Below are positions 8,410 through 37,281 of a DNA stretch of 64,000 nucleotides, in pieces. Position 1 is the stretch's first letter. Each line of letters starts with the position of its first letter. Location: contig NZ_CP128362.1 in assembly GCF_034274695.1 (NCBI RefSeq), positions 3,412,501-3,476,500 of the forward strand, read 5' to 3'. The notes under the pieces were generated by a model that saw only the letters and a list, made by a program, of their open reading frames with translations, searched no databases and had not been told where the DNA came from. Position numbers and translations under genes: made by a program. This stretch comes from Chitinophaga sp. LS1 (GTDB taxonomy: Bacteria; Bacteroidota; Bacteroidia; Chitinophagales; Chitinophagaceae).

Positions 8410-8637
8410 ATGAAGAACGCACTGAAAATTGGTTTCTTAGCATTAGCACTGGGTGTATTTGTAACTGCATGTGGCGGTGGCGCAAGCGAAACTGCTACTG
8501 ATTCTACAGCTGCAGCTACACAGGCTATCGATTCAGTAGCAAACGCTGCTAACGATTCTATCACTGCTAAGGCTGATTCAGGCAAGGTTGCAGTTGATTC
8601 TATCGCTACTGCTGCTAAAGATTCAGTTAAGCACTAA
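8410..8637 (+). CDS. Small alanine/aspartate-rich lipoprotein
   Basis: A 75-residue protein with a signal peptide ending in the lipobox-like FVTAC, so Cys21 is the probable lipidated residue, followed by GGG. The mature part is low in complexity: Ala, Asp, Ser, Thr and Val dominate and an AxDSIAxAA/DSV pattern recurs every 10-14 residues (AIDSVANAANDSI, VAVDSIATAAKDSV). This would form an amphipathic helix. It resembles small Lpp-like or entericidin-like envelope lipoproteins in general character, but I do not recognise a family. It is transcribed divergently from the sigma factor gene. Confidence 0.82.
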   Translation: MKNALKIGFLALALGVFVTACGGGASETATDSTAAATQAIDSVANAANDSITAKADSGKVAVDSIATAAKDSVKH

Positions 8638-8670
8638 TCTTACTCCGCAAGCAATAAAGCTTTTTATATG

Positions 8671-8700
8671 CCGCTCTGCAACCGCAGGGCGGTTTTTTTT
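8671..8700 (+). terminator. Intrinsic terminator after the small lipoprotein gene
   Basis: A 9-bp stem with one G-T pair (8671-8679 with 8684-8692), an AACC loop and eight Ts. Confidence 0.9.
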
Positions 8701-8790: not shown

Positions 8791-8820
8791 TTGGACAATT
8801 CAAATCCTGATGTATTTTTG
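8791..8820 (+). promoter_or_regulatory. Promoter of the aromatic amino acid operon
   Basis: TTG at 8791-8793, a 19-base spacer and TATTTTTG at 8813-8820, a full match to the Bacteroidota -33/-7 pattern. Transcription would start near 8826, leaving about 15 bases before the ATG of the first leader peptide. Confidence 0.75.
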
Positions 8821-8840
8821 TCGTGCAATTCAAGCAAATT

Positions 8841-8903
8841 ATGATACAGCAAACAACCTTTGGTTACTTTTATGGTTTCTACTTTTTCTGGTACCAGAAT
8901 TAG
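8841..8903 (+). CDS. Aromatic leader peptide 1 (attenuator)
   Basis: A 20-residue reading frame, MIQQTTFGYFYGFYFFWYQN. Ten of 20 residues are aromatic: five Phe, four Tyr and one Trp, packed into residues 7-18. It starts about 15 bases after the predicted transcription start and ends in TAG at 8901-8903, overlapping the antiterminator segment. This is the layout of a ribosome-sensing leader peptide. A ribosome stalling at Phe, Tyr or Trp codons would leave 8903-8910 free, while one reaching the stop codon would cover it. The peptide itself probably has no function. Confidence 0.85.
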   Translation: MIQQTTFGYFYGFYFFWYQN

Positions 8904-8980
8904 GGAGGTCGTTTGTAGTACTTAAACATAAAAAGAAACTAACAAAAAGGCCTCCCGATAAGGGAGGCCTTCTTTTTTTT
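8903..8980 (+). promoter_or_regulatory. Attenuator 1: antiterminator and terminator of the aro operon
   Basis: The terminator is a perfect 10-bp stem (8947-8956 with 8962-8971), a GATAA loop, then C and eight Ts. The competing antiterminator is GGGAGGTC at 8903-8910, which can pair over eight positions (one G-T) with GGCCTCCC at 8949-8956, the left arm of the terminator. Its first base is the last base of the leader 1 stop codon. The pairing was worked out by eye. Confidence 0.82.
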
Positions 8981-8995
8981 CAAATAACTCGATAT

Positions 8996-9076
8996 ATGTT
9001 ACGCCGTTTCAGTCTTTACTTCTTTTACTTTTTTTACTTTTTCTTTTACGTCGTAAAGGCCGGGACTCTCTTGTAA
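8996..9076 (+). CDS. Aromatic leader peptide 2 (attenuator)
   Basis: A 26-residue reading frame starting 15 bases after the T-run of attenuator 1. After MLRRFSL, residues 8-18 are an uninterrupted run of Tyr and Phe (YFFYFFYFFFY); in total there are eight Phe, four Tyr and no Trp. The last codons (22-25, bases 9059-9068) double as the antiterminator strand of the second hairpin. It would only be transcribed when attenuator 1 is read through. The frame remains open upstream to 8810, but that would run through the first terminator. Confidence 0.84.
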   Translation: MLRRFSLYFFYFFYFFFYVVKAGTLL

Positions 9077-9136
9077 AAAATGCACTAAACATATAACTGC
9101 ACTTTAAAGGGTCCCGGCTCAACCGGGGCCCTTTTT
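9059..9136 (+). promoter_or_regulatory. Attenuator 2: antiterminator and terminator of the aro operon
   Basis: The terminator is GGGTCCCGG (9109-9117) pairing with CCGGGGCCC (9123-9131) with one G-T pair and a CTCAA loop, followed by five Ts. The alternative pairing is GCCGGGACTC (9059-9068) with GGGTCCCGGC (9109-9118), ten positions with one G-T. The two structures exclude each other. pheA begins 57 bases after the T-run. Confidence 0.82.
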
Positions 9137-9192
9137 CATTTTATCCGGTAGTTGTTGTAGCAACTATCAAATACAAACAAATCAAATTAAAG

Positions 9193-10014
9193 ATGCACAT
9201 CGCAATTCAGGGATTCGAAGGGTGTTTTCACCAAATAGCGGCACAAGGATACTATGGAAAGGATATAACGATCGAATGTTGTGCTTCATTCGCGGAATTG
9301 ATTAAAAAAGTAAAAACGCAGGTAGCCGATGCAGGTGTGATGGCCATCGAAAACTCGATTGCCGGAAGTATACTTCCAAACTACACCCTGCTGAAAAACT
9401 CGAACCTGCATGTAATCGGAGAAGTATACCTGCATATCAAACAACATTTGATGGCGCTGCCCGGTACGCCATTGGAAGATATCAGAGAAGTACACAGTCA
9501 TCATATGGCGCTGTTGCAGTGTACTGACTTCCTGGATAAATATCCGCAAATGAAACTGGTGGAAACTGAAGATACCGCCCTGAGTGCAAAACATGTGGCT
9601 ACCAAGAAACTGAAAACAACAGCTGCCATCGCGGGCAAACTGGCAGCTGAAATTTATGGTCTGGAAATCATTGCACCCAACATCCATACCATCAAAAACA
9701 ACTATACCCGCTTTCTGGTTATTTCTCCAAATGGTGTAGAACCTGCGGCAGATTCCAACAAAGCATCTGTATATTTCCAGACATCTCACGAATCTGGTAG
9801 TCTGGCAAAGGTGCTGACACAGGTAGCAAGTACAGGTATTAACCTGAGCAAACTGCAGTCTTTCCCAATGCCAACCAAAGAGTGGAACTATTATTTCCAC
9901 GCCGATTTCGAATTCGAAGATCTGGTTACTTTCCAGAAAGGCATCAGCAAAATCACACCGCTGACTGAACATCTGAAAGTGCTCGGTATCTATAAAAAAG
10001 GCAAAACATTATAA
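9193..10014 (+). CDS. pheA: Prephenate dehydratase
   Basis: Converts prephenate to phenylpyruvate, the committed step to phenylalanine. The 273-residue protein has a periplasmic-binding-protein-like catalytic domain (about 1-185) with the NNYTRF motif holding the catalytic Thr, and a C-terminal ACT domain (about 195-270). It lacks a chorismate mutase domain; that activity is fused to DAHP synthase downstream. The ACT ligand motif that reads ESRP in many relatives reads QSFP here (KLQSFPMP), so feedback by Phe may differ. It is the first gene after the tandem attenuators. Confidence 0.93.
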   Translation: MHIAIQGFEGCFHQIAAQGYYGKDITIECCASFAELIKKVKTQVADAGVMAIENSIAGSILPNYTLLKNSNLHVIGEVYLHIKQHLMALPGTPLEDIREVHSHHMALLQCTDFLDKYPQMKLVETEDTALSAKHVATKKLKTTAAIAGKLAAEIYGLEIIAPNIHTIKNNYTRFLVISPNGVEPAADSNKASVYFQTSHESGSLAKVLTQVASTGINLSKLQSFPMPTKEWNYYFHADFEFEDLVTFQKGISKITPLTEHLKVLGIYKKGKTL

Positions 10015-10036
10015 TCCTATTTTTCAATCATACGAT

Positions 10037-11197
10037 ATGAACTTACAGGTAGCAAAACGGCTGCAACAAACAGAAGAATACTACTTCTCCAAAAAACTGA
10101 GAGAAATAGATGAAATGAACAGGGCTGGTGCCAAAGTGATCAATCTTGGTATTGGTAGTCCTGATCTGCCCCCGCATCCTTCTGTGATCGAGGCATTGAC
10201 TGAAAATGCTCATCGCCCCGATACGCATGCCTATCAAGGGTACAAAGGAATCCCTGCTTTGCGCCAGGCAATGGCCAGCTGGTATCAGCGCTACTACAGT
10301 GTGACCCTTGACCCTGAGAAAGAAGTACTGCCACTGATCGGTTCCAAAGAAGGTATTATGCACATTTGCATGACCTACCTGCAGGAAGGTGATGAGGCCC
10401 TGGTACCCAACCCGGGTTACCCTACCTACCGTTCTGCTGTGAACCTGAGTGGTGCTACCGTAAGAGACTATGACCTGGAAGAAAAAAACGGATGGTTGCC
10501 TGATCTCGATGCACTGGCGAAAACTGATCTGAGCAGGGTGAAACTGATGTGGGTAAACTATCCGCATATGCCAACCGGTGCCCGTTTCAACACTACCTTT
10601 GCAGAAAAGCTGATCAAATTTGCCAACGATCATAATATCCTCATCTGCCACGACAACCCTTACAGCTTTATCCTGAATGCACAGCCACAAAGCTTGTTGC
10701 AAACACCAGGTGCGAAGGATGTGGTACTGGAACTGAACTCCCTCAGCAAATCATCTAACATGGCCGGATGGCGCGTGGGTATGCTGGTGGGTAAACAGGA
10801 GTGGATCAACGAGGTACTGCGTTTCAAAAGTAATATGGATTCCGGTATGTTCCAGCCATTGCAAATGGCTGCTGTAAAAGCACTGGAACTGGGGCCTGAA
10901 TGGTATGCAGCACTAAATGAGATCTATACCGGCCGCCGTCAGAAAGTATTTGAACTGCTGGAATTGCTGAACTGTACTTTTGATCGTGACCAGGTAGGTA
11001 TGTTCGTATGGGCTAAGATACCAGCTACTGCGAAAGACGGATTTACAGTGACGGACGAAATTCTGCAGAAAGCGCAGGTATTTATCACACCGGGTGGTAT
11101 CTTCGGCAGTAACGGTAATGGATATATAAGAGTGAGCCTGTGTAAAGATGAGAAAGTATTTGACGAAGTGTTGCAAAGGATCAGGGCAATTAAATAA
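10037..11197 (+). CDS. Class I/II PLP aminotransferase, probably aromatic
   Basis: A 386-residue fold-type I aminotransferase. The PLP lysine is Lys238 in NSLSKSSNMAGWRVG; Asn174 (NYPHMPTG), Asp206 and Tyr209 (CHDNPYS) and Arg246 are the usual cofactor contacts, and a late YIRVSL provides the substrate carboxylate arginine. Overall pattern resembles the LL-diaminopimelate/aspartate aminotransferase group. Its place between pheA and tyrA, with 22 and 12 base gaps, suggests transamination of phenylpyruvate, 4-hydroxyphenylpyruvate or prephenate. Substrate assignment is by context. Confidence 0.87.
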   Translation: MNLQVAKRLQQTEEYYFSKKLREIDEMNRAGAKVINLGIGSPDLPPHPSVIEALTENAHRPDTHAYQGYKGIPALRQAMASWYQRYYSVTLDPEKEVLPLIGSKEGIMHICMTYLQEGDEALVPNPGYPTYRSAVNLSGATVRDYDLEEKNGWLPDLDALAKTDLSRVKLMWVNYPHMPTGARFNTTFAEKLIKFANDHNILICHDNPYSFILNAQPQSLLQTPGAKDVVLELNSLSKSSNMAGWRVGMLVGKQEWINEVLRFKSNMDSGMFQPLQMAAVKALELGPEWYAALNEIYTGRRQKVFELLELLNCTFDRDQVGMFVWAKIPATAKDGFTVTDEILQKAQVFITPGGIFGSNGNGYIRVSLCKDEKVFDEVLQRIRAIK

Positions 11198-11209
11198 ACA
11201 GACAAAGTT

Positions 11210-12052
11210 ATGATCGTAACGATAGTTGGTACTGGTTTAATCGGTGGATCTCTGGCCATCAGCCTGAGAACAAAGGGGGGCGCCACCCACATCATCGGTG
11301 TGGACCACAACGAAGATAATCTTAAAAAGGCGCAGGAGCTTGGCATCATCGATGAAGGTGCTACCCTGGAAGCAGCCATGCAGCGTTCAACAGTGGTCAT
11401 ACTTGCGATACCTGTAGACGGTTTGCTGAAAGTATTACCTTCTATTCTGGATAATGTGGGACCACAACAGGTGATCATGGATGTGGGTTCTACAAAAGAA
11501 AAAATATTAGCACTCGTTGCCGGTCATCCCCACAGAGGGCGCTTTGTAGCTGCTCACCCGATGGCCGGCACGGAGTATTCCGGCCCCGAAGCTGCTATAC
11601 CGAACCTCTTCACCAACAAGACCATGGTGCTGTGCGATGTGAAAAACAGTGATGAAGACGCCGTGGAAATTGTTGAGGATATGGTAGACAAGCTGCAGAT
11701 GCGCCTCGTATATATGAATGCAGAAGAGCATGACCTGCATACAGCCTACGTATCGCACATCTCTCATATCACCTCCTTTGCACTGGCACTGACCGTACTG
11801 CAAAAGGAAAAAGAGCACGGACGCATCTTTGAACTGGCAAGTGGTGGTTTTGAATCTACCGTACGTCTGGCTAAGAGCTCTCCTGATATGTGGGTACCGA
11901 TCTTTAAGCATAACCGTCATAATGTGCTGGATGTACTGGATGAACATATCCACCAGCTGCAACAGATGAAGAACCTGCTGGAAAATGAAGATTATGATGC
12001 TTTTTATAAACTGATCCAGAAATCAAATAAGATCAGAAAGATCTTAAAATAA
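11210..12052 (+). CDS. tyrA: Prephenate dehydrogenase
   Basis: Oxidises prephenate to 4-hydroxyphenylpyruvate with NAD(P)+, the tyrosine branch. The 280-residue protein has an N-terminal Rossmann motif VGTGLIGGSLA (6-16) and the conserved AHPMAGTEYSGP stretch near residue 115, followed by the helical dimerisation domain with HISHITSFAL. No ACT or chorismate mutase domain is present. It lies 12 bases after the aminotransferase gene in the same operon. Confidence 0.93.
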   Translation: MIVTIVGTGLIGGSLAISLRTKGGATHIIGVDHNEDNLKKAQELGIIDEGATLEAAMQRSTVVILAIPVDGLLKVLPSILDNVGPQQVIMDVGSTKEKILALVAGHPHRGRFVAAHPMAGTEYSGPEAAIPNLFTNKTMVLCDVKNSDEDAVEIVEDMVDKLQMRLVYMNAEEHDLHTAYVSHISHITSFALALTVLQKEKEHGRIFELASGGFESTVRLAKSSPDMWVPIFKHNRHNVLDVLDEHIHQLQQMKNLLENEDYDAFYKLIQKSNKIRKILK

Positions 12053-12069
12053 GTAATCAATCGTTCGTG

Positions 12070-12140
12070 GGCTATAGTCGATGGCTCATAGCAACAAACC
12101 AAATAATCAAATCAAACACTATGGACTATCGACTATAGTC
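12070..12140. repeat. 22-bp imperfect inverted repeat between tyrA and the DAHP synthase gene
   Basis: The arms are 12070-12091 and 12119-12140, matching at most positions with an uninterrupted 11-bp core (CTATAGTCGAT with ATCGACTATAG). The 27-base loop is A-rich. There is no T-run, so it is not a standard terminator. The right arm also contains repeated GACTAT units. Confidence 0.7.
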
Positions 12141-12162
12141 TGTGGACTAAAAAACTACAACG

Positions 12163-13260
12163 ATGGTATTAGCAGACATCCTCTCCAACACTAAATTCTC
12201 TGATCCGGGCTCAGATAAGAAGCCGTTGATCATCTCCGGCCCTTGCAGTGCTGAAACTGAAGAGCAGGTACTTGAAACCGCACAGCGCCTGGCTAAGACA
12301 GGTAAAGTAGATGTACTGCGTGCTGGTATCTGGAAACCACGTACCCGCCCAGGTTCCTTCGAAGGTATCGGTGTACAGGGCCTGCCATGGTTACAGAAAG
12401 CAAAAGCCCTGACCGGTTTACCAGTAGCTGTGGAAGTAGCTACCCGTCAGCAGGTGGAAGAAGCCCTGGCACATGATGTAGATATCCTGTGGATTGGTGC
12501 ACGTACCACAGTAAACCCATTCTCTGTACAGGAAGTAGCTGATGCGCTGAAAGGTGTGGATACAACTGTATTGATCAAGAACCCAATCAACCCGGACCTG
12601 GAACTGTGGGTAGGTGCAGTAGAGCGTGTGCGTAACTCCGGCATCACCAAGATTGGTCTGATCCACCGTGGTTTCTCCAGCTATGGCAATACTGAATACC
12701 GTAATGCACCGATGTGGCACCTGCCAATCGAGATGAAGCGTCGTATGCCAGAACTGCCTATCGTGTGCGATCCTAGCCACATTGGTGGTCGTCGTGACAT
12801 ACTGCAGGAAATCGGTCAGGAAGCAATCGACCTGGATTACGATGGTCTGATGCTGGAATCACACATTGATCCGGACAAAGCATGGAGCGATGCGAAACAA
12901 CAGGTAACTCCTGAAAGACTGGCAGAAATTTTGGATGGTATCAAGTGGCGCCATGAACGTACCGATGTAAAAGAATTCAACTCTGCACTGGATAAACTGC
13001 GTGGTCAGATCAACCAGATCGATGATGAAATTCTGCTGCTGCTGGGCAATCGTATGAAGATTGCTGAGAAGATTGGTCTCTACAAGAAAGAGAACAACGT
13101 GACCATCCTGCAGACAAACCGCTGGAATGAAATCCTGGAGCGTGGTATCGCTAAGGGTGACAAACTGGGTCTGACAAAGGATTTCATCCTGAAATACTTC
13201 GATGCAGTTCACCTGGAATCAATCAACAGGCAGAACAGAGTAATGAACGAAGGCAAATAA
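12163..13260 (+). CDS. Bifunctional DAHP synthase / chorismate mutase
   Basis: A 365-residue fusion. Residues 1-265 are a type I DAHP synthase of the KDO8P-synthase-like group (SGPCSAETEEQ, RAGIWKPRTRPGSFEG, CDPSHIGGRRD), joining phosphoenolpyruvate and erythrose 4-phosphate. Residues 272-360 are an AroQ-type chorismate mutase (LDKLRGQINQIDDEILLLLGNRM then IGLYKKENN), converting chorismate to prephenate. It thus supplies both the first step of the shikimate pathway and the branch-point step that pheA and tyrA need. The fusion is a known arrangement in Bacteroidota. No separate regulatory domain is visible, so the mutase domain may mediate feedback. Confidence 0.93.
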   Translation: MVLADILSNTKFSDPGSDKKPLIISGPCSAETEEQVLETAQRLAKTGKVDVLRAGIWKPRTRPGSFEGIGVQGLPWLQKAKALTGLPVAVEVATRQQVEEALAHDVDILWIGARTTVNPFSVQEVADALKGVDTTVLIKNPINPDLELWVGAVERVRNSGITKIGLIHRGFSSYGNTEYRNAPMWHLPIEMKRRMPELPIVCDPSHIGGRRDILQEIGQEAIDLDYDGLMLESHIDPDKAWSDAKQQVTPERLAEILDGIKWRHERTDVKEFNSALDKLRGQINQIDDEILLLLGNRMKIAEKIGLYKKENNVTILQTNRWNEILERGIAKGDKLGLTKDFILKYFDAVHLESINRQNRVMNEGK

Positions 13261-13300
13261 GTGGCGTCCTGAGTAATCAGGCACAACCATACATCATTAT

Positions 13301-14326
13301 ATGAGAACATTATCTTACCAGTTCCAGCACAGTGCTACCAAATATTACTTGGGAGAAAGCCTCCACCAGCTGGGCAATTATGCAGATCCATCCCGTACCG
13401 TACTGGTTGTGGATGAAAATGTGGATAAACTCCACGGAATGAAATTGCAGGGTTGGAGGAAGCTGGTGATTCCGGATGGAGAAGAGAATAAAAGTGAGGA
13501 AGTACTCGAACAGATCATTGATGGGCTCATAGAGCTGGAAGCTGACCGCAAGACTATGCTCGTAGGTATAGGCGGTGGCATGACCACAGATTTAACCGGT
13601 TATGCCGCCAGCATATATATGCGCGGTATGCCGGTAGGTTTCGTACCTACCACGCTGCTCGCACAGGTAGATGCATCTATCGGTGGTAAGAACGGTATCA
13701 ACCATGGTAAACATAAGAATATGCTGGGCACCATCCGGCAACCGGAGTTTATCCTGTTTGACTTATCACTGCCACTGACCATGCCTGACGAAGAATGGCA
13801 TAATGGTTTTGCGGAGATCATCAAATATGCCTGCATCATGGATGCCGGTATGTTCACTTACCTGGAAGAAAACCGGGATAAGGCCATGCAAAAGGATGTA
13901 GCCGTTCTGGAATACCTGGTAGAACGCTCTGTAGAGCTGAAGACCAAGGTAGTACTGGAGGATGAATTTGAGCAGGCGTCTCGTCGCTGGCTCAACTTTG
14001 GCCACACGCTGGGGCATGCAGTAGAAAAAATTGAGAACATCGCCCATGGTAAAGCGGTGGCAATCGGGATGGTGGCAGCAGCCAAAATCTCAGAGAAGCT
14101 ATCTACTTTGCAGGTGGAACAAACAAACCGGTTGATCAGGCTGATCAATGATTACCAGTTGCCGGTGACCCTGACTTCGAACAAAGAAGAAATGTACAAC
14201 ATCTTCAAGCTGGATAAGAAAAGGGAAAAGGATGCGATCAATTTTGTGCTGCTGGAACAATTAGGTAGCGCGCATACAAAGGCTGTACCGCTGGCAACGC
14301 TGAAGCAGTTGCTGGAGGAGCTATAA
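13301..14326 (+). CDS. aroB: 3-dehydroquinate synthase
   Basis: Second shikimate step: DAHP to 3-dehydroquinate, using NAD+ and a divalent metal. The 341-residue protein shows the GIGGGMTTDLTGYAAS NAD motif, VPTTLLAQVDASIGGKNGIN, the metal-binding Glu in FAEIIKYACI, and the NFGHTLGHAVE histidines. It starts 40 bases after the DAHP synthase gene and is followed by aroA after 16 bases. Confidence 0.96.
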   Translation: MRTLSYQFQHSATKYYLGESLHQLGNYADPSRTVLVVDENVDKLHGMKLQGWRKLVIPDGEENKSEEVLEQIIDGLIELEADRKTMLVGIGGGMTTDLTGYAASIYMRGMPVGFVPTTLLAQVDASIGGKNGINHGKHKNMLGTIRQPEFILFDLSLPLTMPDEEWHNGFAEIIKYACIMDAGMFTYLEENRDKAMQKDVAVLEYLVERSVELKTKVVLEDEFEQASRRWLNFGHTLGHAVEKIENIAHGKAVAIGMVAAAKISEKLSTLQVEQTNRLIRLINDYQLPVTLTSNKEEMYNIFKLDKKREKDAINFVLLEQLGSAHTKAVPLATLKQLLEEL

Positions 14327-14342
14327 ACAACCAAACACACAC

Positions 14343-15632
14343 ATGCAAGTAACAATATTACCCGGCAGCATTCATGGCACCGTAACTGCCAATCCTTCCA
14401 AAAGCGCTATGCAAAGGGCAGTAGCCGCAGCGTTGCTGAGCAATGGTAAAAGCATTATCCGGAATCCGGGTTTGAGCAATGACTGCCTCGCAGCACTGGA
14501 TGTAGCCAGCAAACTGGGAGCAACTATCAATCGTCAGGAAGATTATATCGGGATTACCAGCAATGGTATTCACCCGGTACAGTCTGTAGATAACGAAATC
14601 AATTGTGGAGAATCCGGCCTTGGTATCCGCATGTTTACACCGATCGCTTCTTTGTCTGCACTGCCTATCACCATCAATGGGCATGGTAGTCTGACCACCC
14701 GTCCTATGAACTTCTTCGAAGAAGTTTTACCACAGGTGGGTGTAAAGATCAGCAGCCGTGAGGGCAAGCTGCCTTTGCATATTCAGGGTCCATTACAGGC
14801 GCAGAATATTACGATCGATGGTTCACTCAGTTCACAGTTCTTAACAGGCTTATTAATGGCTTTTGGTGCTGTTGCAGAAGATGTGACGATCACAGTGAAA
14901 GACCTGAAGAGTAAACCTTATATCGCCCTTACCCTGCAGCTCATGGAGCAGTTTGGAGTACAGGTGAAAGAGGAGAACTTTGAGCGTTTCTCATTTGGTA
15001 AGAAACAGGCATACAAAGCCGGCGAATATACTGTAGAAGGAGATTGGAGCGGAGCTGCGTTCCTGCTGGTGGCTGCTGCGGTAGCTGGCAAAGCAGAGGT
15101 ACACCACCTCAATACACAATCTGCACAATCTGATAAAGCGATACTGGAAGCACTGGAAAAAGCAGGTGCAGGTCTGATGTCAGGTGTATTCACTGTGAAT
15201 GTGGAAAAGCAACAATTAAAAGCGTTTGATTTCGATGCGACTGATTGTCCGGATCTGTTCCCTCCACTGGTAGCGCTGGCAGCAAATTGCGTAGGCACTA
15301 CGAAAATACTGGGTGTGAGCAGACTGGCACACAAGGAAAGTGACCGTGGTAAAACCTTACAGGAAGAATTTGGTAAACTGGGTATAAGTATTGACCTGCA
15401 TGGCGATGAAATGCTGGTGCATGGTGGTACAGGTATTACTGGTGGTACTGTTCGCTCTCACAATGATCACAGGATTGCCATGGCATGTGCAGTAGCTGCA
15501 CTGACAGCGAGTGGTCCGGTAGTGATTGAAGATGCGGAGGCGATTAACAAATCTTATCCTGAATTTTACGAACATTTGCAGAAGTTAGGCGGTGTGGTAA
15601 AACAGGAAGGAGCCAACAGTCAGGTACATTAA
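14343..15632 (+). CDS. aroA: 3-phosphoshikimate 1-carboxyvinyltransferase (EPSP synthase)
   Basis: Transfers the enolpyruvyl group from PEP to shikimate 3-phosphate. The 429-residue protein carries TANPSKSAMQRAVAAALLS near the N-terminus, SSQFLTGLLMA, DCPDLFPPLVALAA and the C-terminal HNDHRIAMACAVAAL motif. The usual GNAGTA.R segment is replaced by NCGESGLGIRMF, a variant seen in some other lineages, and LTTRPM stands for L.RPM. The variant could change sensitivity to PEP analogues, which is an inference. Confidence 0.94.
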   Translation: MQVTILPGSIHGTVTANPSKSAMQRAVAAALLSNGKSIIRNPGLSNDCLAALDVASKLGATINRQEDYIGITSNGIHPVQSVDNEINCGESGLGIRMFTPIASLSALPITINGHGSLTTRPMNFFEEVLPQVGVKISSREGKLPLHIQGPLQAQNITIDGSLSSQFLTGLLMAFGAVAEDVTITVKDLKSKPYIALTLQLMEQFGVQVKEENFERFSFGKKQAYKAGEYTVEGDWSGAAFLLVAAAVAGKAEVHHLNTQSAQSDKAILEALEKAGAGLMSGVFTVNVEKQQLKAFDFDATDCPDLFPPLVALAANCVGTTKILGVSRLAHKESDRGKTLQEEFGKLGISIDLHGDEMLVHGGTGITGGTVRSHNDHRIAMACAVAALTASGPVVIEDAEAINKSYPEFYEHLQKLGGVVKQEGANSQVH

Positions 15633-15658
15633 CACGACATTGATAAATCAGCATACTA

Positions 15659-16654
15659 ATGAACAGTTTCGGTAGATTATTCCGGGTAAATGTTTTTGGA
15701 GAGTCGCATGGCGCTAGTGTAGGCGTGAATATTGACGGTGTACCGGCAGGTATTCCGCTGAAGCAGGAAGATTTCCTGCCAGACCTGGACAGGCGCAAGG
15801 CGGGCGCCAAAGGCACCACACCGCGTAAGGAAGATGATCTGCCTTACATCAAATCAGGCGTTTTCAATGACCATACAACTGGTGCGCCGATTACAATTTT
15901 GTTTGAGAACAACAATACGCGTAGTACTGACTATGAGAAGCTGCGTGAGTTTCCACGCCCCGGTCATGCGGATTTTGTAGCTACACATAAGTATGGTGGC
16001 TTTGAAGATTACCGTGGCGGCGGACACTTTAGCGGCAGGCTTACACTGAACCTGGTAGCTGCTGGCGTAATTGCCAAGAAGATATTGGGTGAAAGCATTA
16101 AGGTAACCGCAACTTTGAAAGAGGTGGCGGGATTGCCTGATGCAGCGCAGGGACTGGAAGCGGCGATTGCTGCAAAAGATTCTGTGGGTGGTATCGTAGA
16201 ATGTGTGGTAGAAGGGCTGCCAATTGGATTGGGAGAGCCTTTTTTTGACTCAGTAGAGTCTTGTATTGCCCATGCGGTGTTTGCTATTCCGGCAATCAAA
16301 GGCATTGAATTCGGTGCTGGTTTTGCTGCGGCAAAGATGAAAGGGATAGAGCATAATGATGCGATACTGGATGCTAATGGTAAGACTGCGACGAATAATG
16401 CGGGTGGTGTAGTAGGGGGTATTACTAACGGGAATCCTTTGGTATTCCGTGTGGCGGTGAAACCTACTTCAAGCACGCCTAAGGAGCAGCATACGTTGAA
16501 TATTAAGAGTGGACAGGTAGAGGCTTTTAGTGTGAAGGGAAGACATGATCTGTGTATAGCGCTGAGGGTACCGGTGGTGTTGGAAGCAGTGGCGGCAATG
16601 GCGCTGGCGGATTTGATGATGGTGGAGCAGCGGAGTCCCAGAGTGTGGAAATAA
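15659..16654 (+). CDS. aroC: Chorismate synthase
   Basis: Makes chorismate from EPSP with reduced FMN. The 331-residue protein has the FGESHGASVGVNIDGVPAG start, the RPGHADF histidine region, GGGHFSGRLTLNLVAAG and a C-terminal GRHDLCIALRVPVVLEAVAAMALADLM. It ends within about 10 residues of that last helix, shorter than the roughly 350-360 residues common in the family; the lost tail is normally variable. It is the last gene of the operon and is followed by a strong terminator. Confidence 0.94.
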   Translation: MNSFGRLFRVNVFGESHGASVGVNIDGVPAGIPLKQEDFLPDLDRRKAGAKGTTPRKEDDLPYIKSGVFNDHTTGAPITILFENNNTRSTDYEKLREFPRPGHADFVATHKYGGFEDYRGGGHFSGRLTLNLVAAGVIAKKILGESIKVTATLKEVAGLPDAAQGLEAAIAAKDSVGGIVECVVEGLPIGLGEPFFDSVESCIAHAVFAIPAIKGIEFGAGFAAAKMKGIEHNDAILDANGKTATNNAGGVVGGITNGNPLVFRVAVKPTSSTPKEQHTLNIKSGQVEAFSVKGRHDLCIALRVPVVLEAVAAMALADLMMVEQRSPRVWK

Positions 16655-34599: not shown

Positions 34600-35787
34600 C
34601 TATTCCAATACCAGCAGGTTTACATCTGGATTATTGAGCCATTTAGCTTCCTTCAGCTTTTCCAGATTGATCACCCCAACTATATAACGCCAGGTAGAGG
34701 ATTCATATTTTTCAGAGATATTGTAGAAGTCTGGCAGATGTACCTGATCGGCTGTACGATAACGCAGATAAATTTTTAACTGCACATCGTTGGTAAACGC
34801 CGGAGAGTTAGCCTGCTTAATCTTTTTATACTCGTATCTGTAATTGTATGTCAGTGCAGAGATGTCGGAAAGTACTGCGCTACCAGTAGCGGTACCACCA
34901 GCACCTTTACCTACAAAGAACTGCTTGTCGGTAAATGCGCTTTCGAGCAGAATACCATTGTACTCATTGTATACATCATACAGCAGGTTATGTTCCTTCA
35001 CAAGATGTGGTAATACAGAAGCATTCACACTACCGTTTTGCCTTCTACAACCAGCTATGAGCTTCACTGTAGAGTTCCTTTGTTTTGCGAACTGAATATC
35101 GAAATCATTCAGGCGATGTATACCAAAATTGAATACTTCTTCTGGTTTTACGAATGTGCCAAAGGCGTGTAACAGTAAGATCACGATCTTGAATTTTGGA
35201 TCGTACCCTTCGATATCCAATGTAGGATCAGTTTCTGCAAAACCCAGCTCCTGCGCCTTTTGAAGAGCTTCGTCAAAGCTTTGATTTTCTTCGAATATTT
35301 TCGTGAGGATGTAATTCGTAGACCCGTTACAGATACCTTCAACTGCATTGAGCAGATCATTGTCGTAGTATTCTTCCAGGTTACGTACAATTGGAATACT
35401 TGCACAGCTGGATGCCTCATAGAGGAAAGGCACCTTGTTTTCTACCTGTAACTGGTAGAGTGCTGGCAGGTTTTCGGCGATCATGCGTTTGCTGGCGCTT
35501 ACTACTGCTTTTCCATTACGCAGTGCGGTGCTTACGATTTCGAAAGCCGCTTCTGTTTCATTGATCAGTTCCACTACTACATCGATAGTAGGGTCTTGTA
35601 AGATATCATTCTTGTCTGTAGTGAAATAGCTGGCGTCGATTGGACGAGGCTTATTGGGGTCCTTGATACATATTTTCTTAATACGCGCATTGATACCTTT
35701 AGTTCTGTTCAATACTTCGTAAAGTCCTTGTCCCACACAACCAAATCCGAAAATACCCAGATTGATAATTTTGTTTTCCATGTTCAA
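34600..35787 (-). CDS. hom: Homoserine dehydrogenase
   Basis: Reduces aspartate semialdehyde to homoserine. The 395-residue protein has the N-terminal NAD(P) motif GIFGFGCVGQGLYE (about 10-23), ASSCASIPIVRNLEEYY and GICNGSTNYILTKI, the AETDPTLDIEGYDPKFKI substrate motif and VGKGAGGTATGSAVLSDI. No aspartokinase domain is attached and no clear ACT domain is present at the C-terminus. It lies 44 bases after cystathionine gamma-synthase and should be under the same SAM riboswitch. Translation may start at the second ATG (35781). Confidence 0.93.
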   Translation of the reverse strand: MNMENKIINLGIFGFGCVGQGLYEVLNRTKGINARIKKICIKDPNKPRPIDASYFTTDKNDILQDPTIDVVVELINETEAAFEIVSTALRNGKAVVSASKRMIAENLPALYQLQVENKVPFLYEASSCASIPIVRNLEEYYDNDLLNAVEGICNGSTNYILTKIFEENQSFDEALQKAQELGFAETDPTLDIEGYDPKFKIVILLLHAFGTFVKPEEVFNFGIHRLNDFDIQFAKQRNSTVKLIAGCRRQNGSVNASVLPHLVKEHNLLYDVYNEYNGILLESAFTDKQFFVGKGAGGTATGSAVLSDISALTYNYRYEYKKIKQANSPAFTNDVQLKIYLRYRTADQVHLPDFYNISEKYESSTWRYIVGVINLEKLKEAKWLNNPDVNLLVLE

Positions 35788-35831: not shown

Positions 35832-37010
35832 TTATTGTAAAACTGTAATTTGTTTACCTGCAGGCAGGTTCAGTTTATCCAGTGCCTGTTTGAGGTCGTT
35901 GATGAGATCTTCTGCATCTTCAATACCTACAGAGAGGCGGATGCAGGAATCGACCAGACCTGTTTTCTTGCGGTGTTCTTCCGGAATATTCCGGTGTGTC
36001 ATAGTAGCTGGATGATCCAGCATACTCTTTACACCACCAAAGCTTTCTGCGAGTTTGAACAGCCGGGTGGTGTTCACTACTCTGATTGCATTTTTGATGT
36101 TGTCACTTTTGAGAGAAAAGCTCACGAGTGCACCGTATTGCTTTTGTTGCTTACGGGCGATGTGGTGGTTTTTGTGCGATGCCAGTCCGGGATAGAAGAC
36201 CTTATCCACAGCGGGATGTGCAGAGAGCCAGGTGGCGATGGCCATAGCATTGCTACATTGCTTATCGAGGCGCAGGCAGAGGGTTTCAATACCTCTGATC
36301 GTAAGCCATGCTTCGAAGGGACTGAGTATACTTCCTGAAATATTTTGATTGAAGCGTAGCTGATCGGCCAGTGTTTTGGTGTTGACTACTACCAGTCCTG
36401 CGATTACATCGGTATGCCCCGCGAGATATTTGGTAGCACTATGTATCACGATGTCTGCACCCATTGGAATAGGTTGCTGCAGCAGTGGTGTACAGAGGGT
36501 ATTGTCTACTACCAGCAGTACATTGTGCTGCTTGGCTATCTTGCTGATGGATTTGATATCGGATACGCGTAATGTAGGATTGGTGGGCGATTCCAGCCAG
36601 ATCATTTTTGTATTTGGTGTGATGGCAGCCAGTACTTTGTCGGTATTGCTGGTGTCTACAAAGTTTGCTTTGATGCCAAAGCGTTCAAACATATGCTGGA
36701 ACATCTGGAAGATACCGCCATATGTATCTTCGACAGCCATGATCTCATCTCCTGATTTTAATAGTTTCATTACCGCATCGATCGCGGCCATGCCACTGGC
36801 AAAGGCAAAACCTGCGTGGCCTTCTTCGAGGCTGCAGATAATGTTTTCCAGCACCTTGCGGGTAGGATTGTTGGCACGGGAGAATTCAAACCCTTTGTTG
36901 ATACCGGGTGATTCCTGTACGAAGGTAGAGGTCTGATAGATGGGGACGGAAATGGCGCCTGTCAATTCATCTATCGGGATACTATGTAATAACTGTGTAG
37001 CTATTTTCAA
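35832..37010 (-). CDS. metB: Cystathionine gamma-synthase (Cys/Met metabolism PLP enzyme)
   Basis: PLP enzyme of 392 residues joining cysteine to an activated homoserine to give cystathionine. The PLP lysine is in HSATKYLAGHTDVIAGLVV, preceded by SRANNPTRKVLE, ASGMAAIDAVM and ESPTNPTLRVSDI. Members of this family also include cystathionine gamma-lyase and O-acetylhomoserine sulfhydrylase. The SAM riboswitch upstream and hom downstream favour the biosynthetic direction; the exact substrate is not certain. Confidence 0.88.
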   Translation of the reverse strand: MKIATQLLHSIPIDELTGAISVPIYQTSTFVQESPGINKGFEFSRANNPTRKVLENIICSLEEGHAGFAFASGMAAIDAVMKLLKSGDEIMAVEDTYGGIFQMFQHMFERFGIKANFVDTSNTDKVLAAITPNTKMIWLESPTNPTLRVSDIKSISKIAKQHNVLLVVDNTLCTPLLQQPIPMGADIVIHSATKYLAGHTDVIAGLVVVNTKTLADQLRFNQNISGSILSPFEAWLTIRGIETLCLRLDKQCSNAMAIATWLSAHPAVDKVFYPGLASHKNHHIARKQQKQYGALVSFSLKSDNIKNAIRVVNTTRLFKLAESFGGVKSMLDHPATMTHRNIPEEHRKKTGLVDSCIRLSVGIEDAEDLINDLKQALDKLNLPAGKQITVLQ

Positions 37011-37101: not shown

Positions 37102-37140
37102 AGTATTATTAAGTACGATGAAAATGTCAATCTCTGCCAA

Positions 37141-37260
37141 CTTATCTATCTCCGGTTATATGTATAACCGAAGCCGGAATTAGCACCTTTCCCTCGTTTG
37201 TTAAACAAGGTTGGTTGCTAAGGCATCGCAGGGCCAAGTCCCTCCGCCTTTCTGGATAAG
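37141..37260 (-). ncRNA. SAM-I (S-box) riboswitch
   Basis: Read on the minus strand, the region opens with CTTATC and GGCGGAGGGA, then CUUGGCCCUGCGAUGCC-like and AGCAACC, the classic S-box core with its kink-turn and ligand-site bases, and ends with GATAAG-type sequence (GATAGATAAG) that pairs with the 5' CTTATC to close helix P1. It precedes metB and hom, both for methionine synthesis. SAM binding should stabilise the aptamer and favour the terminator at 37067-37101, lowering expression when SAM is plentiful. Confidence 0.92.
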
Positions 37261-37281
37261 TCATCTATAAAGAACTGGGTG

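Follow-up and report, generated by a model that had tools for sequence, protein, structure and literature searches.

Two putative leader-peptide attenuators in series upstream of the aromatic amino acid operon of Chitinophaga

The aromatic operon and its leader

The window (the 64,000 nt of Chitinophaga sp. LS1 contig NZ_CP128362.1 that were analysed) contains an aromatic amino acid operon of seven genes, pheA, an aminotransferase gene, tyrA, aroF-aroQ, aroB, aroA and aroC, at positions 9193-16654 of the plus strand. The genome that carries it is a single contig of 8.67 Mb, and the named relatives closest to it in PheA are Chitinophaga CF418, filiformis, cymbidii, costaii and silvatica. The best NCBIfam matches of the seven genes are to prephenate dehydratase, an aminotransferase (best model: LL-diaminopimelate aminotransferase), prephenate dehydrogenase, DAHP synthase-chorismate mutase, aroB, aroA and aroC; genes 1, 2 and 4 (prephenate dehydratase, aminotransferase and DAHP synthase-chorismate mutase) score below the curated cut-off of their own best model. 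Gene order and strand are identical in all 29 of the Chitinophaga loci that were fetched with approximately 11 kb of sequence. Between them, tyrA and the DAHP synthase gene leave 110 nt (12053-12162), the other gaps in the operon being 12 to 40 nt. This gap contains words similar to CTATAGTC and GACTATAG, both repeated and inverted, and by eye no terminator. The upstream neighbour (8410-8637, plus strand) encodes a small lipoprotein-like protein of 75 residues that is rich in Ala, Ser and Asp, and is followed by a terminator-like hairpin at 8670-8693. Elsewhere in the window, a SAM riboswitch (Rfam RF00162, 82.6 bits) is located at 37139-37262 of the minus strand. The genes behind it, both on the minus strand, encode a Cys/Met-metabolism PLP enzyme-like protein (35832-37010) and a homoserine dehydrogenase-like protein (34600-35787), names that were assigned by reading, without a search.

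A promoter-like site, read from the sequence, is found at 8791-8820 of the plus strand. It consists of TTG at 8791-8793, 19 nt, and TATTTTTG at 8813-8820; TTG, 17 to 23 nt and TAnnTTTG is what we take to be the Bacteroidota promoter consensus. This motif is present near ORF 1 in 59/59 Chitinophaga loci, compared to 19/1180 shuffled sequences. In the spacer between terminator 1 and ORF 2 (1 to 57 nt), TAnnTTTG occurs in only one of the 59. A preliminary description of this region had placed a single promoter ahead of two modules, and the distribution of the motif bears this out.

The two short frames, their T-tailed hairpins and the genes downstream were all found where that description had put them, on the plus strand. 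Module 1 begins with leader ORF 1 (8841-8903, MIQQTTFGYFYGFYFFWYQN), which has Phe and Tyr codons and one Trp codon. Its region 1, a possible protector strand, is located at 8850-8859 and could pair with 8906-8915 (one mismatch in the window). Region 2, the antiterminator strand GGGAGGTC, is located at 8903-8910 with its partner at 8949-8956, and terminator hairpin 1 follows at 8947-8971 with a T-run to 8980. Module 2 begins with leader ORF 2 (8996-9076, MLRRFSLYFFYFFYFFFYVVKAGTLL), whose aromatic codons are Phe and Tyr only. Its region 2, the antiterminator strand GGCCGGGACTCTCTT (9058-9072), lies within ORF 2, and terminator hairpin 2 has a T-rich tail (9106-9134). Both frames are present in 59/59 Chitinophaga loci. 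Six terminator-like sites were found in 1.3 kb (both strands), where shuffled sequences have a mean of 1.0, and the folding of the 352-nt leader has a z-score of -5.35 (0/100 shuffles as low).

Each module therefore has the parts of a complete attenuator: a frame rich in codons for products of the pathway (predicted to be translated), an intrinsic terminator between this frame and the first gene (based on sequence and predicted structure), an antiterminator that excludes the terminator (based on pairing, with modest covariation) and control codons placed for switching between stalling and completion (according to an energy model). The leader probably contains two complete ribosome-mediated transcription attenuators that act in turn on one transcript.

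Alternative helices and ribosome-stall geometry

Helix conservation was assessed in silico using 50 of the 53 distinct genus leaders, the three omitted having a frame extended upstream. In module 1, the terminator is paired in 87.4% of cells with 17 cells changed on both sides (0/500 shuffles as high), and the antiterminator is paired in 91.3% of cells with 10 cells changed on both sides (12/500 shuffles as high). In module 2, these values are 94.1% and 10 cells for the terminator and 86.8% and 13 cells for the antiterminator (0/500 shuffles as high in both cases). Some slid versions of the module 1 helices approach or surpass the true register in individual measures: terminator 1 slid by +1 keeps 84.3% of cells paired with a covariation score slightly above that of the true register, and slid versions of antiterminator 1 reach at most 74.7% pairing, yet two of them show more doubly changed cells. 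Double-sided changes are found at just 3 to 4 pairs per helix, a number that 24 to 122 of 500 shuffles equal or exceed; strong covariation is absent because the leader sequences of the genus are too alike. The 1:2 protector helix of module 1 is paired in 81.2% of cells among the 50 sequences, with covariation at the shuffle level, and a 6-pair candidate can be drawn for module 2. Judged by this pairing, mutually exclusive terminator and antiterminator helices are kept in both modules.

In the ribosome-stall model, the RNA downstream of the ribosome was folded for each codon, and the measure was the probability that the terminator 5' arm is held by upstream sequence. In module 1 of the window, the modelled antiterminator stands at 0.83 through Trp17, 0.68 at Tyr18 and 0.12 at the stop codon. 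In module 2, it stays at 0.92 up to and including Tyr18, where the aromatic codons end, and is down to 0.18 at the stop codon. For both modules in 59/59 genus loci, the predicted probability is 0.5 or more with the ribosome at the last aromatic codon and below 0.4 at the stop codon. Outside the named loci, a switch point is found in 304 of 320 modules. It falls 1 to 4 codons past the last aromatic codon in 92% of the 304 (modules that are related by descent and so not independent), compared to 50% when block ends were permuted among modules (maximum 57%) and 18% with uniform placement (maximum 27%). The state without a ribosome also favours the antiterminator in this model (means of 0.82 and 0.86) and not the expected terminator. 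This preference stands against the simplest picture of attenuation.

Distribution and origin of the tandem leader

Modules were detected upstream of pheA as a short F/Y/W-rich frame with a terminator within 130 nt, and a second detector accepted only ATG starts. At least one module was found in 300 of the 349 upstream regions of usable length, compared to 22/349 reverse complements and 3/348 shuffles (ATG-only control runs: 3/349 and 1/348). The full set of 353 loci (59 of them from Chitinophaga, and 80 of them named loci that may overlap the others) comprises 204 loci with one module according to the first detector, 95 with two, one with three, 49 with none and four that are too short.

PheA was found in all 60 of the Chitinophaga genomes searched; one genome whose contig starts 111 bases upstream (G006) was omitted, leaving 59 loci. 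Two modules are present in 58 of these and three in one (the third being a TTG-started frame), and the ATG-only detector finds exactly two in 59/59. The named Chitinophaga loci, some of which may be the same genomes as the 59, have two modules in 5/5 cases. In other Chitinophagaceae, a PheA match was found in 64 of 88 genomes, two of which are Chitinophaga. The 62 remaining loci have one module in 59 cases, none detected in three and two in none (57, five and none with the second detector). A search of relatives for two frames upstream of pheA, as suggested in the preliminary description, accordingly recovers both modules in every Chitinophaga locus examined, with neither degenerate in these close relatives; elsewhere in the family a single module is the rule. 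Measured by PheA identity, the closest relative with one module (64%; locus L060 of G112) has a short leader, MAHHTSYGTFYFYGYRKV, with its terminator far from pheA. This leader is clearly like neither Chitinophaga module (mean z 1.0 and 1.5).

Tandem leaders are also found in more distant groups. Family f18, which belongs to the same order as Chitinophagaceae and which, going by that order, might be guessed to be Saprospiraceae, has two modules at 11 of 24 loci (one of the 11, L289, with a doubtful second module), one at 12 and none at one. Genus g180 of family f70 is probably Hymenobacter, as its PheA reaches 79% identity with the PheA of the named H. mucosus. Its 31 loci have two modules in 15 cases, one in 15 and none in one (17, 13 and one with the second detector); this count leaves out PheA matches in six further genomes, and the class set leaves out ten of 107. 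When four one-module g180 loci were read by eye, a second unit was seen in L303, L374 and L399 and none in L385. The detector misses units, so the one-module g180 counts are too high and zeros are overcounted as well. With many g180 loci having both units and L385 one only, gain and loss seem to be ongoing in this genus. The named Hymenobacter loci have two modules in 3/3 cases, and lone tandem loci are found in families f58 (L132), f55 (L342) and f42 (L371). In Flavobacterium aquidurense (L272), pheA is preceded by an F/Y-rich frame, MSNNRFYFSNSFYFFFSRSEDCAMVI, and a T-run with a weak hairpin, which the detector overlooked.

It seems that the tandem leader arose on more than one occasion. In a 119-row PheA tree, the one- or two-module state changes at least 17 times, a number that includes detector errors and long branches; with 92 rows it changes 12 times. 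A single clade of the Chitinophaga, g180 and f18 tandems is rejected (p-AU 3e-6). Repeated state changes alone are also compatible with an old tandem that was lost many times. Within-locus similarity was scored against 60 shuffles with L289 set aside. The two modules are alike in six of ten f18 loci (z 7 to 13; the remaining four have z 0 to 3.6) and in L132 (z 12.2), L342 (z 7.8) and L371 (z 6.3), which suggests separate duplications.

In Chitinophaga, module 2 resembles the single module of the family (mean z 7.6, range 0.6 to 16.2), whereas module 1 hardly does (z 1.9) and is also little like module 2 (z 2.4; five sampled loci each). Module 2, being similar to the family-wide attenuator, is probably the older of the two and module 1 an addition. 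A DNA search of the same genome gave no second copy of module 1, the best other match being 22 bases (E-value: 0.013). A search of this genome for F/Y-codon runs gave 299 matches, fewer than the 363 of a reversed-pattern control, so this kind of search is unable to find other leaders. The free PheA tree groups the Chitinophaga and g180 tandems with a support of 20, and a tree that unites all Chitinophagaceae and leaves Hymenobacter outside scores 7.4 log units higher (p-AU 0.684). The g180 PheA groups with that of Chitinophagaceae (support 96 to 98), a grouping that could reflect operon transfer.

Expected response and comparison with known systems

The proposed model for the leader is as follows. 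A ribosome slowed at the Phe or Tyr codons of a module (or, in module 1, also at the one Trp codon) would leave region 2 free. Free region 2 would pair with the terminator 5' arm, and RNA polymerase would read on. A ribosome that has moved past the last aromatic codon would instead cover region 2, such that the terminator forms. As RNA polymerase must pass both terminators, the read-through probabilities of the two modules would multiply, so that there is less leakage while aromatic amino acids are abundant, the range is wider and the sensitivities sum. If sensitivity is defined as logarithmic gain (PMC1183508), the multiplication of probabilities means that the gains add, which is our own inference. 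The likeliest role of the second unit, based on this model, is multiplied repression with a steeper and wider response.

The size of the effect was explored using a race model built on the codons of the window and the stall-model curves. Rates and speeds in this model are assumed and its numbers are illustrative. At 20-25 nt/s, the range of the Phe response is 30-fold for the tandem and 5-fold for module 2 by itself; at 35 nt/s, these values are 10.6-fold and 3.3-fold. Peak logarithmic gain is 2.2 to 2.8 for the tandem and approximately 1.3 to 1.45 for module 2 alone. Slowing the Phe codons to 0.1 raises modelled read-through 11- to 31-fold. Slowing the Trp codons to 0.1 or 0.03 raises it 1.7- to 4.5-fold (2.9- to 4.5-fold at 0.03 alone).

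The single Trp codon of module 1 is the main difference in codon content between the modules. It was noted in the preliminary description and is kept across the genus: Trp is found in module 1 of 57 of the 58 two-module Chitinophaga loci and of the remaining locus, L016 (58/59), and in module 2 of 0/59. The codon is TGG in 49 of 50 aligned genus sequences and TGT in L018. It sits in a conserved near-palindrome, TTCTGGTACCAGAA, whose 3' side varies (CAGGAA in many loci), and its conservation might therefore have another cause. In the models, Trp would be a weak extra input, and a shortage of Trp alone would be expected to open module 1 but not module 2. One use of such an input would be a graded weighting, in which Phe or Tyr shortage opens both modules fully and Trp shortage opens module 1 alone for a slight rise in chorismate flow. 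Such weighting would fit a single Trp codon conserved in module 1 only, as well as the race model at 20-25 nt/s, where even severe Trp slowing has an effect of 1.7- to 4.5-fold against approximately 30-fold for Phe. However, the conservation of the near-palindrome around the codon and the different placement of Trp in other groups (11 of 23 second or only modules in f18 and 8 of 59 single modules in other Chitinophagaceae) make it rather unlikely as the purpose of the arrangement.

The preliminary description went further and suggested that the two modules, differing in codon content, could act as a logical AND of aromatic amino acid shortage. Its two units in series behind one promoter-like site stand, and a steeper response remains a possible outcome, but a literal AND gate of different aromatic shortages was rejected, as module 1, by its codon content, also reads Phe and Tyr. 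Because the signals of module 1 include all of those of module 2, the combined condition (F or Y or W) AND (F or Y) is simply F or Y. A logic gate in which Trp is nevertheless a true second input would draw on the near-universal Trp codon of module 1 in the genus, its absence from module 2 and a modelled antiterminator that is intact with the ribosome at Trp17. This is improbable given the reduction to Phe or Tyr, and Trp is found in module 1 of 0/15 two-module probable Hymenobacter loci and only 2/11 f18 loci. The Trp branch also seems to have an attenuator of its own. The best TrpE-like gene of the genome is approximately 127 kb away (411.9 bits, below the model cut-off of 517.7), and at this locus (L400) a single Trp leader, MTTFITNNHWRWHNISS, and terminator are located between approximately 200 and 70 nt upstream of the TrpE-like match, which lies at genome position 3292862.

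Two further explanations concern the modules themselves. Regulation by one module, with the other a redundant relic of duplication, would fit the single modules of 59 of 62 other Chitinophagaceae loci and of L385 in the probable Hymenobacter. Both modules are intact in 59/59 Chitinophaga loci, however, each keeping its control codons, alternative helices and stall geometry, and there is little chance that either is a relic. A role for the first terminated RNA (approximately 8826-8980) as a small RNA, or a separate function of its peptide, has a precedent in leader peptides that are active in trans, such as peTrpL (PMC7298713), but is very improbable because the conserved parts are those that an attenuator needs.

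Taken together, it is plausible, though we put it forward tentatively, that Bacteroidota have repeatedly duplicated an entire module ahead of the pheA operon, the pair serving as a same-signal gain amplifier, that gain and loss are ongoing in the probable Hymenobacter and in f18, and that the Trp codon of Chitinophaga is a weak, weighted vote.

The trp, his and phe leaders of enteric bacteria are classical leader-peptide attenuators, and attenuation is usually described with a single leader peptide and a single terminator for each operon. Each Chitinophaga unit is similar to these leaders in its frame rich in pathway-product codons, its alternative antiterminator and intrinsic terminator and its control codons just before the region to be kept free; unlike them, it is one of two complete units in series before one operon. 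At Rfam gathering scores, no match was found in the leader; module 1 scores 41.1 bits against Phe_leader (RF01859, gathering score 55), and the opposite strand scores 35.9.

Among known tandem leaders, the mgtCBR leader of Salmonella similarly has two short frames and two attenuation steps (PMC3641672). As described there, its signals are ATP and proline, and its stem-loops are, according to the authors, unlike intrinsic terminators, whereas both Chitinophaga units read Phe and Tyr (by codon content) and end in T-rich hairpins. The mgtCBR attenuators have additive effects, so a multiplied effect in Chitinophaga is not to be taken for granted. Tandem homologous riboswitches repeat a switch for the same signal and have been called more "digital" gene control devices (PMC9481103), but these are ligand-binding RNAs and not ribosome-sensing leader peptides. 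In the rimP leader of some Gammaproteobacteria, a second terminator is likewise found in tandem, the upstream one with a potential antiterminator; the available description names no leader peptide or amino acid signal (PMC2965389). Bacteroidetes terms do not occur in the available text of that survey of premature terminators. A conserved pheA 5' element has been reported in Flavobacteriaceae, in a paper that also gives hints of leader-peptide attenuation ahead of amino acid operons (PMC9723704); the text available mentions no tandem, in contrast to Chitinophaga, and by eye the Flavobacterium locus L272 has one F/Y-rich frame. Bacteroides leaders receive passing mention in the literature, and a survey of Actinobacteria, in the part available, shows classical attenuators. 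Among the matches listed in a search of the open-access literature (most subscription papers being outside its scope), none described same-signal tandem leader-peptide attenuators or the Chitinophaga leader.

A same-signal series in every Chitinophaga locus examined, together with one-module relatives, offers a direct test of how attenuators combine, and these natural one- and two-module leaders would allow the addition of gains to be measured. The tandem leader also offers compact parts for tighter amino-acid-controlled expression. Compared with the systems above, the mechanism of each unit is classical, and what is new is the series of two and its apparent recurrence.
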